Source: Ureaplasma sp. ES3154-GEN (GTDB lineage: Bacteria > Bacillota_I > Bacilli_A > Mycoplasmatales > Mycoplasmoidaceae). Taken from it: DNA of 64,000 nucleotides. The stretch lies in NCBI RefSeq assembly GCF_025780075.1, contig NZ_JAOXHM010000002.1, positions 1-64,000 on the forward strand. The letters are read 5' to 3'. Shown one piece after another: positions 22,886 to 33,849 of the stretch. The notes below the pieces were generated by a model. The model was not told where the DNA came from, made no database searches, and saw only the letters and a program-made list of their open reading frames with translations. Made by a program: the position numbers and the translations under genes. Each line of letters starts with the position of its first letter. The first letter of the stretch is position 1.

Positions 22886-22893
22886 GAGGACAA

Positions 22894-23823
22894 ATGTCAA
22901 AAATTTATGACACAATAATTATTGGTGCAGGTCCAGCGGGTCTTGCGGCAGCTGTTTATGGTAAACGTAGTGGATTAGATATTCTGGTAATTGAAAAAAA
23001 TGCTCCAGGAGGAAAAGTTGTTTTAACTTCTACAGTAGAAAATTATTTAGGTTTTGAGAAAATTGATGGTCCCGATTTAGCATATAAAATGTATGACCAT
23101 GCTGTTAGTTTAGATGTTGAGTTTGCATTTGAAGAAGCTTTAGGTATTGATAAAAAAGATAATTATATATTTGTTAGTACAACTGAAAAGACTTATCAAG
23201 CAAAAACTTGTTTAATCGCAACGGGAACTGTTAACCGTCAATTACAAGTTAAAAACGAAGAACGTTTTTTTAACAAAGGGATTTCATTTTGTGCAATTTG
23301 TGATGGCCCATTATACAAAAATAAAGATGTTGCAGTTATTGGTTCTGGACGTTCTGCAGTTGATGAAGCAGTTTACTTGGCGGGAATATGCAATAAAGTT
23401 TATGTTATTTCTAATAAACCTGCTTTCAAAGCTGATCAGCATACAGTTGATGTATTATTGAAACAAAAAAATGTGGAAATATTCTTTAACAAAGAAACGA
23501 TTGGTTTTGATGGCGATGATCATTTAAAACAAGTTCATATGATCGATATGATCGATCAAACACCAACAACTTTAAACGTTGCAGCAACCTTTATTTTTAT
23601 CGGTTTATTACCAACAAAAATAAAAAATAGTAGTGATGATTTATATGATCCTAAGACAAACTTTGTAAAAGTTAATGGACACTATCAAACAGATATTCCA
23701 GGAATTTTTGCTGCGGGTGATGTGATTGTTAAAAACATTCGTCAGATTTCTACAGCAACGAGCGATGGGACACAAGCGATCTTACTAATAAGTGAGTATA
23801 TAAATAAAAATGAGTGAAAGTAA
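22894..23823 (+). CDS. trxB: Thioredoxin reductase
   Basis: 309 aa. FAD/NADPH enzyme that reduces thioredoxin. FAD motif '[15 protein letters not shown]' at 9-23, redox pair C133-A-I-C136 in 'SFCAICDG', NADPH motif '[12 protein letters not shown]', C-terminal FAD motif 'GIFAAGDV'. Start ATG 22894 is fixed by SD 'aggagga'; the last codons before TAA include a TGA-Trp. Overlaps whiA by 14 bases. Thioredoxin is also a usual electron donor for ribonucleotide reductase, encoded at 27079-30741. Confidence 0.94.
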
Positions 23824-25101: not shown

Positions 25102-26013
25102 TTATTTTTCTGATTTCTTTGTATAAGCAACAGCAACAAGAGCGGCGACTTTAGCATTATTATAAACTAATTGAATGTTTGCTTCTAAACTTTGACTATT
25201 AGTTTGTTCGGTGATTTCCTTTAATAGAAATGGCGTTGTGTCTTTGCCAGTAATTTTTAAATCAACTGCTTTTTGTAGAGCTCGGTTAATATATTGGTTA
25301 ATGACTTCGTTGGGGATACTATATGCTTTGGGTATTGGATTTGCAAGTATAATTCCAGATTGATCAAGATTTCATTTAGCATGCATTAAATCAGCGACCT
25401 CTGTTACAGAATTAATTCTATAAGTAACATCTAAGTCTGATGTAGCAGAATAGAAGGCAGGAAGTTTTGGTGTTTGATAACCCAAAACTTCGACCCCTTT
25501 GGTTTCTAAATATTCAAGCGTCAAAGGGAGATCAAGAATAGCCTTAGGACCAGCGCAAACAACAAGAATTGGGGTTTTGGCAATAACTTCTAGGTCATTG
25601 GATATATCGAATGTTTCTTGCGCGTTACGGTGTACTCCACCAATTCCACCGGTTGCAAAAACCTTGATTCCCACATGCTGACTAATTAAAGAAGTGGTTG
25701 CAACGGTTGTTGCACCAGTTAATTTGTTTGCAAGAACATAACCAAGATCACGAGTGCTAGTTTTATAAACATCTTTGGCAGTTGCGAGATATTCTAAATC
25801 TTCATTGCTTAACCCAACTTTAATAACACCTTTAATAATTGCTATTGTAGCAGGGATTGCATTTTGCTCTCGGATGATTCGTTCACATTCTTTAGCCATT
25901 GCGATGTTTTGAGGATAGGGCATTCCATGGGAAATAATAGTTGATTCTAAACTAACAACCGCTTGATTATTTGCTAAAGCGTTTTTAATTTCGTCTAAGA
26001 TTTGGATTTTCAT
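25102..26013 (-). CDS. psuG: Pseudouridine-5'-phosphate glycosidase
   Basis: 303 aa. Splits (or reversibly forms) pseudouridine 5'-phosphate into uracil and ribose 5-phosphate. Family hallmarks: 'VSLESTIISHGMPYPQN' near the start, 'TTVATTSLISQHVGIKVFAT', and 'GGIGGVHRNAQETFDIS' (the usual GGIGGVHRG/N segment). A TGA at 25369-25371 is Trp, and the C-terminal 90 residues continue beyond it ('TPFLLKEITEQTNSQSLEAN'), giving normal family length. Its ATG overlaps the psuK stop (ATGA-type), so the two are translationally coupled. Confidence 0.92.
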
Positions 26014-26900
26014 AATTTAATTTCCTTTTCTAAGTTAATGGGATTAAGTTCTAAACTGTTTGTTAAAGGAGAACGCAAAGTAATTAATGACGCACAACTA
26101 CCTCCGATTAAGAGTTCATAAGGATCACTTTTTTGCGCAAGATAATAAGTGTATAAAAAACCTGCAAGAAAAGCATCACCGGCGCCCGAAACATTAGTTA
26201 CAGTTGCTAATTGAGCAGGAATTTGGAAAACCTCCTGGTTTTTAAAAAGTAAAGATCCTTTTGACCCCATTGTTATTAAAACTTCAGGGATTTTTAAATC
26301 CTGCAATTTTTGAATTAGTTCGTCAAGATTATCAACTTCTAACAAAGTACAAATTTCTAAAAAATTTGCTTTCAAAGTCTGAATTTCGTTTAGAACAGAT
26401 CGTAAACGAACAATTTTTTTCGCTGATACACCTTCGATATAAACATTTTTAAATTGATTTAAAACATATTTAATAGTTGCTGTTTGCATATTTGCATCAC
26501 AAATTACAAATGCATAGTCATCAGGATTTAAACGTTTATTTACAAGGTAATTAATATCGATATGATTTACACATGGCATATCATTTATTGCTACCACAAG
26601 TTCGTTTTGGTCGTCAAAAACAGAAAGATAAACATCTGTACTATGGGGGTATATTGTTGCAAGTGTATTAATATTGATTGAGCGCAAATAATCAATTGCA
26701 TTTTCTCCGTATTTATCATTTCCAACATTAAAAACAAAGTCGACATCAAAACCTAAACGAACAAGGTTTTCAGCAATATTTTTTGCAACCCCTCCGTATG
26801 TTTGATAAATATTTCCAGGATTTGAATCGTTGTAAATTAACGGTTCTTGAACTGTTGCTAATAAATCAACAGTAACTGCTCCAATAACAAGAATTTTCAT
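26010..26900 (-). CDS. psuK: PfkB-family kinase, probable pseudouridine kinase
   Basis: 296 aa ribokinase-fold enzyme. N-terminal 'GGVAKNIAENLVRLG' is the sugar-binding GG motif in the form seen in PsuK (GGVARNIAENLARLG). The C-terminal 'NVSGAGDAFLAGFLY' is the PfkB signature with catalytic Asp. Position upstream of and overlapping psuG supports pseudouridine as substrate rather than ribose or fructose. No pseudouridine transporter is seen in the window. Confidence 0.88.
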   Translation of the reverse strand: MKILVIGAVTVDLLATVQEPLIYNDSNPGNIYQTYGGVAKNIAENLVRLGFDVDFVFNVGNDKYGENAIDYLRSININTLATIYPHSTDVYLSVFDDQNELVVAINDMPCVNHIDINYLVNKRLNPDDYAFVICDANMQTATIKYVLNQFKNVYIEGVSAKKIVRLRSVLNEIQTLKANFLEICTLLEVDNLDELIQKLQDLKIPEVLITMGSKGSLLFKNQEVFQIPAQLATVTNVSGAGDAFLAGFLYTYYLAQKSDPYELLIGGSCASLITLRSPLTNSLELNPINLEKEIKL

Positions 26901-27078
26901 TTTAACACCTTTTTAAATAAATTATAAGAGAAAAAATAACTTCTGTATATACAACAATTATTATTCCCTAAAATACTATAAAATATGTAAATTATTGCAG
27001 GAATAAGTATTTTATTTTTTCTGGATTTTTAAAAATTTTACCACTATAATTAATAAACACTAGGAGGAGGATTTTATC
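26901..27078. promoter_or_regulatory. Divergent promoter region of psuK and nrdF
   Basis: It contains a TATAAT at 27045-27050 for the nrd operon, giving a short leader, and two interleaved repeat pairs: ttattcc 26961-26967 with ggaataa 27000-27006, and aaaatac 26970-26976 with gtatttt 27007-27013. No NrdR-type box was recognised. Confidence 0.45.
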
Positions 27079-28113
27079 GTGAATTCCAAAAATATAAAAA
27101 GAAAAAACACATATTTTTACGAATCTGTTTCCCCCATTGAATATTATAAAAATGGGTTTAAAGGTCGTTTAAGATCAGTGAATTGAAACTGAATGAATGA
27201 TGAGAAAGATCTTGAGGTTTGAAACCGAATTACGCAAAATTTCTGGTTACCAGAAAAAATTCCATTAGCAAGTGATATTCCATCATGAAAAACATTAAAT
27301 GAGGATTGACAACAATTAATTACACGCACATTTACAGGTTTGACACTATTAGATACAATACAAGCAACAGTGTGTGATGTGGAGCAAATTAGAAATTCAT
27401 TAACTGATCATGAACAGGTTATTTATGCGAACTTTGCTTTTATGGTTGGGGTGCATGCACGATCATATGGTTCAATTTTTTCAACACTTTGTACAAGCGA
27501 ACAAATTGAAGAAGCCCACGAATGAGTTATTAGCAACGATAAATTACAAGCACGAGCTAAAGAACTAATTCCGTATTATATGAACGAAGATCCGTTAAAA
27601 TCGAAGGTTGCAGCCGCTCTAATGCCTGGATTTTTATTATATGGGGGTTTTTATTTACCGTTTTATTTGTCTGCACGCCAAAAATTGCCGAACACAAGCG
27701 ATATTATTCGTTTAATTTTGCGTGATAAAGTAATCCACAATTATTATTCTGGTTATAAATACCAACGCAAAATTGAAAAAATGAGTGCGGAAAAACAGGC
27801 TGAAATGAAAACTTTTGTTTTTGATTTAATGTACCGTTTAATTGATTTAGAAAAAGCTTATTTATATGAATTATATGAAGGATTTGATATTGCTGAAGAT
27901 GCAATTAAATTCTGCTTATATAACGCAGGAAAGTTTTTGCAAAATCTAGGGTATGATTCACCATTTACGGATGAAGAGACAGCAGTTGCGCCGGATGTCT
28001 TTGCACAATTGTCTGCGCGAGCAGATGAAAATCATGATTTCTTTTCAGGTAACGGTTCGAGTTATGTAATGGGTGTTTCTGAAGAAACTGAAGATGATGA
28101 TTGGGATTTCTAA
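27079..28113 (+). CDS. nrdF: Ribonucleotide reductase beta subunit, V/P/K (class Ie-like)
   Basis: 344 aa from GTG 27079 with SD 'aggaggagg'. It is clearly NrdF ('TFTGLTLLDTIQATV', 'GVHARSYGSIFSTL', 'IHNYYSGYKYQ'). Three of the metal-binding glutamates of class Ib are replaced: Val123 ('AFMVGVHARSY'), Pro183 ('LMPGFLLYGGF') and Lys217 ('LRDKVIHNYY'). Asp92, His126 and His220 remain, and the radical tyrosine is Tyr130. This V/P/K set defines the metal-free DOPA-radical group (class Ie) described in Mesoplasma and mycoplasmas. Several Trp codons are TGA. nrdI follows after 2 bases. Confidence 0.95.
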
Positions 28114-28115
28114 TT

Positions 28116-28580
28116 ATGTGTAATGATGTTTATAAATTAATTGAAGAAACACAAGTTAAAAAACCATCAGGTGATGTACTTGTGGTTTATTTTTCGTCTT
28201 TTTCGAATAACACACATCGATTTGTGTTAAAAACAGGCTTACGTGCTTTGCGCATTCCAATTGATTTAGATGAAGAATTGAATGTGAATGAAGATTATGT
28301 TTTATTTTGTCCAACTTATTCGGGCGGCGGAAATGAAACAAAGGGTGCTGTTCCAAAGCAAGTGATTCAGTTCTTAAATAATAAAAATAACCGTGATCAC
28401 TGTTTTGGTGTTATTCCTAGTGGAAATACCAACTTTAATGATACTTATTGTCTAGCTGGTCCAGTGATTTCACAAAAACTAAATGTCCCTATTTTATACC
28501 AATATGAACTATTAGGTACCAAATACGATGTGGACAATGTTAAAAATATTTTAAATAAATTCTGGGGGAAAAATGAATAA
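28116..28580 (+). CDS. nrdI: Flavodoxin-like NrdI
   Basis: 154 aa. Small FMN protein that supplies the oxidant used to activate NrdF. 'LVVYFSSFSNNTHRFVLKTG' is the FMN phosphate-binding loop of NrdI, 'FCPTYSGGG' and 'VIPSGNTNFNDTYCLAGPVI' are family motifs. Start ATG 28116 follows the nrdF stop; the 3' end overlaps nrdE by 8 bases. Class Ie NrdF proteins need NrdI to form DOPA from the tyrosine, so its presence fits. Confidence 0.93.
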   Translation: MCNDVYKLIEETQVKKPSGDVLVVYFSSFSNNTHRFVLKTGLRALRIPIDLDEELNVNEDYVLFCPTYSGGGNETKGAVPKQVIQFLNNKNNRDHCFGVIPSGNTNFNDTYCLAGPVISQKLNVPILYQYELLGTKYDVDNVKNILNKFWGKNE

Positions 28581-30741
28581 AGAAAATAAAACCAATCGCT
28601 TAATAGATAATGATGAATATATTGCTCACAATGCGTTAATTGGGATCCGATCAAATCAGTTTAGTGTGGATTACGAACAAGATAAAATTGCAGTTAAAAA
28701 ATATATTGCTAGCCAAATTATTCCCAACACTAAGGTGTTTAGCAGCAAAGAAGAAAGAATTCATTGATTAATAAAAAACAATTACTATGACGAAAATGTA
28801 GTTAATAAATATAGTATTAAAGATGTTATCGCTCTTGAAGAATATGCAGATAGTTTTAATCATAATTTTTTAAATTTTATGGGTGCTTTAAAGTTTTATA
28901 GTACATATTGTTTAAAAACTTTTGATAATAAAGAATATTTAGAAAACTTTGCTCAACGGGTAGTGATGAACGCATTGACATTAGCAGTTGGCAATGTACA
29001 ATTAGCTAAAGCATTGGTTCAAGATATTATTACTTATAAATTTCAACCTGCAACACCAACGTTTTTGAATGCAGGTAAAAAACAACGTGGTGAGTATGTA
29101 TCATGTTATTTGTTGCGTGTAGAAGATAATATGGAATCAATTTCTCGAACTATTGCAACAAGTTTACAATTATCAAAGCGAGCAGGTGGGGTTGCGCTAT
29201 GTTTAACAAATCTGCGAGAGGCAGGAGCGCCAATTAAAAAACTTGCTAATAAATCATCAGGTGTTGTTCCGGTAATGAAAATTTTAGAAGATAGTTTTTC
29301 ATATGCGAATCAATTAGGTCAACGACCGGGTGCGGGTGTGGTTTATTTAAATGTTCATCACCCTGATGTACTAGCATTTTTAGATACAAAACGGGAAAAT
29401 GCAGATGAAAAAGTACGAATTAAATCATTATCACTAGGTTTGATTATTCCGGATATTACATTTGAATTAGCAAAAGCTAATCAAAAAATGGCATTATTTT
29501 CTCCTTATGATGTTGAACGTGTTTATGGCAAACCGTTAAGCGATATTTCAATTACAAAAGAATACGATAACTTAGTTAATAATCCTGAAATTAAAAAATA
29601 CTTTATTGATGCGCGAAAATTATTCCAAACGATTTCAGAGTTACATTTCGAAAGTGGTTACCCTTACATTTTATTTGATGATACAGTAAATAATAACTCA
29701 GCATTCCCTAACGAACGAATTGTAATGAGTAATTTATGTTCTGAAATCGCTCAACCATCAACAATGACAACATACAACGAGGATTTAAGTATTAAAAACC
29801 TTGGAAAAGATATTTCCTGTAATTTAGGATCATTAAATATTGCTAAAATAATGTTTGCTGCAAACGATTTTGGAAATGTGGTTAAACGTGCAATTTATGC
29901 TTTAAATACAGTTTCACGAGTAGCTAATCTTGAATGTGCACCAACGGTACAAAACGGAAATAATCAAAATCATGCATTAGGCTTAGGCGCAATGAATATG
30001 CACGGGTTTTTGGCAACAAACAAAATTTATTATGATTCTGCAGAAGCATTAGATTTCACCAACATTTTCTTTTACACAGTTGCGTACTATGCATATCAGG
30101 CATCAAACGAATTGGTGAAAGATTTTGGTGTCTTTGCAAATTTTAAAGGTTCAAAATATGAAGATGGCACACAGTTTGCTAAATATACAGATGTTCCAGC
30201 AGACACTTTTGTTCCTAAGACACAAAAAGTTGCCGATATTTTTAAACAATATAATATTCATATTCCAACCCAAGAGGAATGAAAAGTACTTTCATTAAAA
30301 ATTCAACAAGAAGGAATTGCCAATTCACATTTATTAGCGATTGCTCCTACTGGCTCGATTTCTTACCTTTCATCTTGTACGCCGAGTTTGCAACCAGTAG
30401 TTGCACCAGTAGAAGTGCGTAAGGAAGGTAAAATCGGACGGGTGTACGTGCCTGCTTATGAAATTAATAATGATAATTATAAATATTATCAACAGGGCGC
30501 TTATGAACTTGGACCTAATCCGATCATCGATATGGCTGCAGTTGCTCAACAACATATTGATCAAGCAATTAGCCTAACATTATTTATGACTGATAAAGCA
30601 ACAACACGAGATTTAAATAAAGCATATATTCGTGCTTTTAGCAAAAAATGCGCTTCAATTTATTATGTGCGTATTCGTCAGGATGTGCTTGAAGGATCAG
30701 AAAATTACGATGATTACCAATGCGAGTCATGCAAGATTTAA
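28573..30741 (+). CDS. nrdE: Ribonucleotide reductase alpha subunit
   Basis: 722 aa catalytic subunit. Active-site elements: 'YVSCYLLRVEDNMESI' (redox Cys), 'MSNLCSEIAQPS' (thiyl radical Cys and Glu), 'GAMNMHGFLA', 'APTGSIS', and the C-terminal electron-shuttle pair in 'CESCKI'. It lacks a long N-terminal ATP cone, as is normal for NrdE. SD 'ggggga' before ATG 28573. Order nrdF-nrdI-nrdE is the mollicute order. No nrdH is present here; TrxB/thioredoxin may serve. Confidence 0.96.
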
Positions 30742-30841: not shown

Positions 30842-32593
30842 ATGTATACCACAAGAAATTCTATTGAATTGGAAATTGAAAAGCTATATAAAGTAATCCA
30901 TAGTAAAGACAAAAAAGTGGTGGCTTTATATGGCGAGGGAGATGAAAAGGTCTATCAGATATTAAATGATATGATTGTACTGTCTGAACCCAATCTTCCT
31001 GAATGATCATCCATTTCAACTGCGCATGAAGAACGTTTAATTGAAGATATTAAAGGTTTTTTATTAGCAAACACTACCCTTGGAAATTTTAAATATTGGG
31101 AAAAGGAAACAAAATTAGCATTATGATGAAAAAAACGACGAATTGCCAAAGTCGTTCGTCAAATTGATGAAATTGATAATGCGGTTAATAAAAAGGAAAT
31201 TCAATCCCGATCGCGAGTTTATTTAATTCCTATTATTACAACCTTTAGTACAATTGGAGCAACAATTGCTGTTCCTCTAATTTCAATTGTTTTTTTACGT
31301 ACGAAAGAAATTATTGAAGTTTGATCTCGACAAGGATTCATCGGAATTGTTGCCGCATTATTTACTTTAATTGGAGCAATTATCTTATCAAACTTAATTT
31401 CTTTATTTAATAACCTGCGTGCCAACCGACGTGATTTACTGGTTTATAACATTGATAAAACATTAAATAATATTTACAAAAAATATTATTTTGAGGAACG
31501 TCATACTACCAGTGAGTACGACCCAAATAGCATATATGATAGATTTATGCATTCATCAAAAATGGTTATAAATAAGCATTATACGTTTTTTTATGACACT
31601 GTGGACACAAGCAATATTACATATAGTAAATTATTGAAATATATTAAAACCTTGAATTCCTTTAACAATACAGTAATTTTTAATGTTTCGTTTTTTAAAT
31701 ATCTTGATGAACGAAAAGTTTTTCGTAATTTAATTGAGGAAGATAAACGTCTAATTATTCGGTTAGATAAATATAAAACTAAGACAAGTTCGCGACGAAT
31801 TATGAATTTTTTATCTTACCAATTATCAACAATTTCTAATATTAATTTACGAAAAATGATTAATACATTTCCATACTTTGTGAATAGTATTTATCGGTTT
31901 ATTGACTACTCTTCAAGTAATAATCAAATCTTATCATTATTACTGGATGTTAAAAAGTTTGCAAGTAGAAATGAAGAGTTTATTCTAAGTAAATTAGCAC
32001 AATATTATTTTGTTGATTTCTTTCACTTATTAGTTTTTAAAGCACTTGAACCAACAGATTTTGAAACAATGCTATCTGATATTTTAATTTATGGGCGTCC
32101 CCGAGAAGCCATTCGTTCTTCAAAATATTATGTACAATTAAAATTAAATGACATTTTGAACCGGAATGTTTCATTATATAAAAACATTGGTTTTATTCTT
32201 AATATGAACGACTATTTTGTTGAAGATATTGATAAAAATATTTTTGCTGATTTTGAAAAATTTGGGGAAAAAGCAATTAGTCAAACATATAATAAGCATG
32301 ATCAAATCAAAGCTCTTAATAATGCTTTAGTGCTTAAAAACTACACTCTTCAAGAGATTGCTGACGATTTAGCTGAGCGTTATGATGCATTATATAAAAA
32401 CAACCAAGATGAAGATATTTTCATCAAGGTTATCTCTCATAGCAAAGAAGTTTCATTTATTAGCGAATTAGAAGATACCCTAAAACAAGCATCAAACGAT
32501 GATATTGCAAATTTAATTATTGTTTGCTATAACAAACATCTATACTACCGTTTAATTGACGGCGAGTACGAAATTGTAAACGAAACAATTTAA
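30842..32593 (+). CDS. Uncharacterised two-span membrane protein
   Basis: 583 aa, read through TGA-Trp codons at several places. No family recognised. An N-terminal charged domain (1 to about 123) is followed by two membrane segments (about 125-150 'IPIITTFSTIGATIAVPLIS', and about 165-190 'FIGIVAAFTLIGAIILSNLI'). A long charged helical C-terminal domain of about 390 residues, presumably cytoplasmic, follows. SD 'aagga' lies upstream of ATG 30842. It precedes the K+ channel gene by 11 bases, so the pair is probably co-transcribed and may act together at the membrane. Confidence 0.8.
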
Positions 32594-32604
32594 AAGGAAT
32601 ATTT

Positions 32605-33849
32605 ATGACTAATCTCGAAATTAGAAATTTCAAAAATCAGAACAAATTATTGTATTTCAATAGATTTCGGTTTGCTTTATTCGAGTTTACAGATATGCAA
32701 GCTTATGCTAAAATTATGAACCTTCGTTCGGCCATAGCTTTTATTTACCAATTATGTTTAATGATTATGGTTGTTTGTTCTGCTACCATAATCATTTATA
32801 ATCAAGCAGAGTTGAACAAAAATGCAGCTGAAACTTTAAATTTAGTACACCATCGTTTTATTAAAAACTATTTTTTAGCTTTCTATATTATTAACTATAT
32901 TTTTTTATTTGATTACTTTTTACGTTGGATATATGCGGATTATTCACAGTATAAATGAAGCCGTCTAAAAGCTTTTTTATTATTTCCGTTTAGATTCACA
33001 AGTTTTCTTGATTTTGGATCATTTTTAATTGTGATTATTATTTATCATACAGGCTTAGAGCAAATGATAATGCATCCACAATTTAATACAGATCCTAGTT
33101 TATTTAAGGATTTTGTAAATAATGTTGTGTTTATGGATCTTTTTCCCGCAGCCATTTTGTTTAAAATTTTAGGCTTGCATAAAAAAATTATTAATAACAC
33201 AGTACTAGCTTCTGAAATAAATGTTTTTGGAGAGGTAATTAAACGTCGTTGACGAATTTTGCTATCTTCAATTATTGTAATCTTGGTATTTGCTTTTGTT
33301 TTAAGTTTTATTATTTTACGAGTTGAACAAGATTATTATCAACAACATAATATTAATCTTGATAGTGATAAATATAAATTCAAAACGCTAGGCGATTCGC
33401 TATGATTTGCTGTGGGTACAATTACCACAATTGCTTATGGTGACTTGGCGCCTGTGAGTGAACAAGGTCGTTTTTTCGCATCATTGATGGGAATTATTGG
33501 GGTAACATATTACGGGTTTTTAACGTCTTTATTTGCATCAGGAATTATTTCGGTTTTGAATGAATCTGCGCGTGCAAGAACCAACACAAAACTTTTACAA
33601 TTTCAATCAGAAAATGAACGCTTACTAAATGATTTTTCTGAAAAAATTATTGATGAATTTAAAAAATATAAAAATCAAGATAAAGATGATGAAGAAAGCG
33701 TTAAACAAGATATTCAGAAAGAGCGAATGATTATGTTTAACCAACGAACAGCTCGGAAGAATCCTAAATTGTTAAAGGGATTAGTTGATGACTTTGCTAA
33801 GAAAAAAAGTCAAATTAATTGAATTTTAAGAAAACCAAGTAAACGATAA
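32605..33849 (+). CDS. Voltage-gated-type potassium channel
   Basis: 414 aa. The pore has the selectivity filter 'TTIAYGDL' (usual TTVGYGDx; Val-Gly is Ile-Ala here) with the pore helix 'LGDSLWFAVGTI'. About six membrane spans: TM1 and TM2 in the first 115 residues, TM3/TM4 at about 130-195, TM5 at about 215-240, then pore and TM6 ('FASLMGIIGVTYYGFLTSLF'). The TM4 region lacks the regular arginines of voltage sensors. A charged coiled-coil tail (about 325-400) is cytoplasmic. K+ selectivity is expected, though the Gly-to-Ala filter change is unusual. Confidence 0.85.

Follow-up and report, generated by a model that had tools for sequence, protein, structure and literature searches.

The question raised by the nrdF gene of Ureaplasma sp. 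ES3154-GEN is to which type of ribonucleotide reductase (RNR) its product belongs, given that residues of other kinds stand where three glutamates of a di-metal site would be expected. The gene lies in the window analysed here, a stretch of 64,000 nucleotides (contig NZ_JAOXHM010000002.1 of assembly GCF_025780075.1, positions 1 to 64,000). Based on sequence comparison, nrdF, nrdI and nrdE are predicted, with a probability of roughly 95%, to form a complete operon that encodes a metal-free RNR of class Ie, VPK type (Table 1). The hallmarks of class Ie VPK enzymes are an NrdI-dependent conversion of Tyr to DOPA, a radical absorbing near 383 nm and the absence of metal from the active protein.

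Table 1. Features of the nrdFIE operon and its surroundings in the window
Feature	Position	Strand	Evidence
Thioredoxin-reductase-like flavoprotein	22891..23823	+	Pyr_redox_2, 143.7 bits
Divergent pair: PfkB-family kinase and Indigoidine_A-family protein (pseudouridine-5'-phosphate glycosidase type)	25102-26900	-	
AGGAGGAGG, Shine-Dalgarno-like, ahead of nrdF GTG start	27062..27070	+	read directly in sequence
nrdF, class Ie (VPK) R2 subunit, 344 aa	27079..28113	+	NCBIfam PRK13965.1, 603.6 bits (cut-off 486)
nrdI, flavodoxin-like assembly protein	28116..28580	+	TIGR00333, 177.7 bits (cut-off 74.65); PF07972
nrdE, R1 catalytic subunit, 722 aa	28573..30741	+	TIGR04170, 946.4 bits (cut-off 750)
583-aa protein, directly 3' of nrdE, then 414-aa voltage-gated-like ion channel	30842-33849	+	Ion_trans_2 (ion channel)

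The nrdF reading frame starts with GTG and contains six in-frame TGA codons, which are read as Trp; under translation table 11 it is broken at these six TGA only, up to the terminal TAA. A pseudogene with in-frame stops was therefore rejected, since all six are TGA and code for Trp here. NrdF, NrdI and NrdE all score above the curated NCBIfam cut-offs, the start of nrdE overlaps the end of nrdI, and the operon (27079-30741) has the gene order found in all VPK loci examined and, according to PMC11846895, in nearly every VPK genome. Beside it, the PfkB-family kinase and Indigoidine_A-family protein likely form a pseudouridine breakdown pair, and on the other side no Pfam match was obtained for the 583-aa protein downstream of nrdE.

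A preliminary description of this DNA had proposed that Val123, Pro183 and Lys217 replace three glutamates of the di-metal site while Tyr130 is kept, and that nrdI adjoins nrdF. Alignment to class Ib and class Ie NrdF proteins confirmed the V/P/K residues, disclosed no shifted glutamates and showed Tyr130 to be conserved together with the other metal ligands Asp92, His126 and His220; the adjacency of nrdI holds as well. The set comprised 62 VPK, 3 QSK and 26 metal-ligand-intact class Ib proteins, taken from named genomes and related mollicute genomes with some species included twice. The three columns read E/E/E in class Ib and Q/S/K in QSK proteins, and V/P/K is identical in 62/62 VPK-type relatives, which share 72-83% identity with the window NrdF, so that the substitution is not due to chance. 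Each of the three residues lies within a gap-free conserved block (NFAFMVGVHARSYG, AALMPGFLL and ILRDKVIHNYY, respectively), and the metal-ligand glutamates have therefore not been displaced elsewhere in the protein; an alternative placement was ruled out on these grounds. Instead of the class Ib ligand set of four carboxylates and two histidines, D92 is the only carboxylate left. In the NrdF tree, the window protein falls inside the VPK clade, which is separated from QSK and class Ib proteins by a branch with 100/100 support.

The same description had likened this pattern to the metal-free, DOPA-radical RNRs of Mesoplasma and mycoplasmas, a view which homology supports. The closest solved structures are those of class Ie R2 proteins (6gp2, 6gp3, 8bt3 and 8bt4), and the best match (E 9e-193) is 6gp2, the active MfR2 of Mesoplasma florum (PMC8902622), for which a DOPA126 radical has been documented (PMC7615503, PMC8902622). 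Briefly, Y126 of the M. florum protein is present as DOPA and forms a short hydrogen bond to D88, while K213 donates a proton via water (PMC7615503, PMC8902622). Using the residue roles assigned to the DOPA site and radical path in these two studies, MfR2 residues W52, L84, D88, Q91, V119, H122, Y126, Y163, L183, F187, I209, R211, D212, K213, H216 and Y325 were found to be identical in the window NrdF with an offset of four residues. Y126, D88, Q91, K213, W52 and Y325 thus equal Y130, D92, Q95, K217, W56 and Y329, and H126, Y167, L187, F191, R215, D216 and H220 of the window protein likewise match the M. florum DOPA site or radical path. Given the M. florum chemistry and these identical residues, the same chemistry is the best inference for the window NrdF, whose DOPA, lack of metal, radical and activity we infer from the characterised homologues.

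Comparison with other R2 proteins places the enzyme further. It shares with MfR2 the V/P/K residues, the DOPA tyrosine, the Asp, Lys and Gln of the site, the radical path and about 80% identity, but the host belongs to another mollicute family and the window protein has A64-S65 and C279 in place of Ser-Asn and Ser. The QSK R2 proteins of Gardnerella/Bifidobacterium vaginale and Corynebacterium also have all three glutamates replaced, with a Lys at the third site and a DOPA tyrosine (PMC11846895), whereas they carry Q/S where the window protein has V/P and differ in operon order; identity to the Corynebacterium QSK proteins is about 53%. The Mn2 class Ib NrdF proteins represent the ancestral family and share the NrdI partner, but their E/E/E site is intact and identity is 31-56% among those examined. 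Outside Mollicutes and Lactobacillales, VPK-type nrdFIE loci were observed in Oceanivirga (Fusobacteriota, L046), Dialister (L044) and Coriobacteriales (L064).

The partner proteins point in the same direction. NrdE carries the cysteines and tyrosines of a working R1, with the C178/C416 pair, N387/C389/E391, Y697-Y698 and a C-terminal CESC motif (C717, C720). These key residues are invariant in 48 relatives, except for a few C-termini beyond the reach of the alignment, and the window NrdE does not deviate at any position that is at least 98% invariant among them. NrdI is the predicted supplier of the oxidant, superoxide. The genome search returned one NrdI and one thioredoxin, and the thioredoxin-reductase-like flavoprotein, encoded outside the operon 3 kb upstream in the window, may be part of the electron supply to NrdE. 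In the proposed mechanism, NrdI would be reduced and then reoxidised by O2, yielding superoxide or HO2 that would pass through the R2-NrdI channel, hydroxylate Tyr130 to DOPA and then oxidise it to the stable radical. Asp92 and Lys217 would hold this DOPA radical in place of a metal site, and upon NrdE binding the radical would travel via Trp56 and Tyr329 to Cys389 of R1, where NDP reduction would follow.

The RNR complement of the genome and its genus was surveyed with the models PF00268, PF02867 and PF13597, of which the large-subunit Pfam model also matches class II enzymes in controls. The genome of the window organism (822,731 bases, 95.4% complete, 11 contigs) contains one R2 and one large subunit, and NRDD was not found in it; class Ie thus appears to be its only RNR at this level of completeness, as has been reported for 65 species with VPK that rely on class Ie alone (PMC11846895). 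Among the genomes of the genus examined, only this one has class Ie. Five of the nine congeners carry an R2 with intact E/E/E that is most like class Ia NrdB, although scoring below the curated cut-off; nrdA/nrdB-like pairs that retain the metal site and resemble class Ia most closely were located at L125 (5420-8954, G002) and L099-L103. In the other four, neither R2 nor R1 was found, three of these genomes being at least 96% complete and one 64% complete. The three near-complete ones (G001, G003 and G009) gave no RNR with any of the three models, which implies dependence on deoxynucleoside salvage.

These congeners bear on the better of two rival explanations, namely that NrdF is a degenerate, inactive protein whose metal site has been lost, the dNTPs being obtained by salvage. 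Three genomes that are 96-99% complete and have no detectable RNR indicate that RNR-free life seems possible in the genus, and S64A and N65S depart from all other VPK proteins. At position 64-65, all other VPK proteins and the QSK proteins have Ser-Asn, and all 62 other VPK proteins have Ser at 279, where Cys stands here (S279C); none of positions 64, 65 and 279 is among the DOPA-site residues named in PMC7615503 and PMC8902622. However, the frames of nrdF, nrdI and nrdE are intact, every catalytic and radical-path residue is kept in both subunits, all 62 relatives share the fixed V/P/K and the M. florum representative of this type is active (PMC11846895), which makes loss of function highly improbable. 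Still less credence is due to the idea of a conventional class Ib Mn2/Fe2 R2 whose ligands are shifted or replaced by others, for although NCBIfam places the protein under class 1b models, none of them labelled Ie, the glutamate columns hold V/P/K free of gaps, no Glu was found within four residues of them in the NrdF alignment, and the solved structures closest to the protein belong to class Ie.

With the class Ie, VPK-type operon as the preferred reading, its origin may be considered. The closest proteins are those of Mycoplasma sp. CSL7503-lung and M. simbae (L032, L043) and of their kin, which likewise have a class Ie (VPK) R2 and share 81-83% identity with the window in NrdF and about 70% in NrdE. 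Their LigA proteins, on the other hand, are only 38-40% identical to that of the window, and CSL7503-lung and M. simbae are therefore distant species from the window organism; the nearest LigA sequences are those of congeners (50-57%), with M. testudinis at 48% and Malacoplasma and uncultured Mycoplasma MAGs at 48-49%. With NrdF alone, no firm position for the window protein within the VPK clade emerged from the tree. In the NrdE tree, the window groups with M. simbae, CSL7503-lung and kin with 100/99 support, a grouping discordant with LigA, which suggests that the nrdFIE genes have been transferred horizontally. An empty-site comparison in congeners found the ligA surroundings to be non-syntenic with the window. 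A more specific proposal is given about an even chance: the class Ie operon would have passed horizontally between the M. simbae lineage and this pneumoniae-group genus, whose other members have class Ia-like enzymes or none, and would now be the sole source of newly made deoxyribonucleotides there.

Class Ie VPK enzymes are established in mollicutes, and the window enzyme adds a member to them while leaving knowledge of the mechanism unchanged; what is mildly new is class Ie as the only RNR detected, in a genus otherwise class Ia-like or RNR-free. A class Ie enzyme allows DNA precursors to be made without Mn or Fe, metals which are withheld by hosts. Should the proposed transfer be true, a metal-free RNR would, inside one genus, either have taken over from a metal-dependent enzyme or have made good the earlier loss of an RNR. 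Taken together, a mixed genus with class Ie, class Ia-like or no RNR provides a natural comparison for when a metal-free RNR is adopted.
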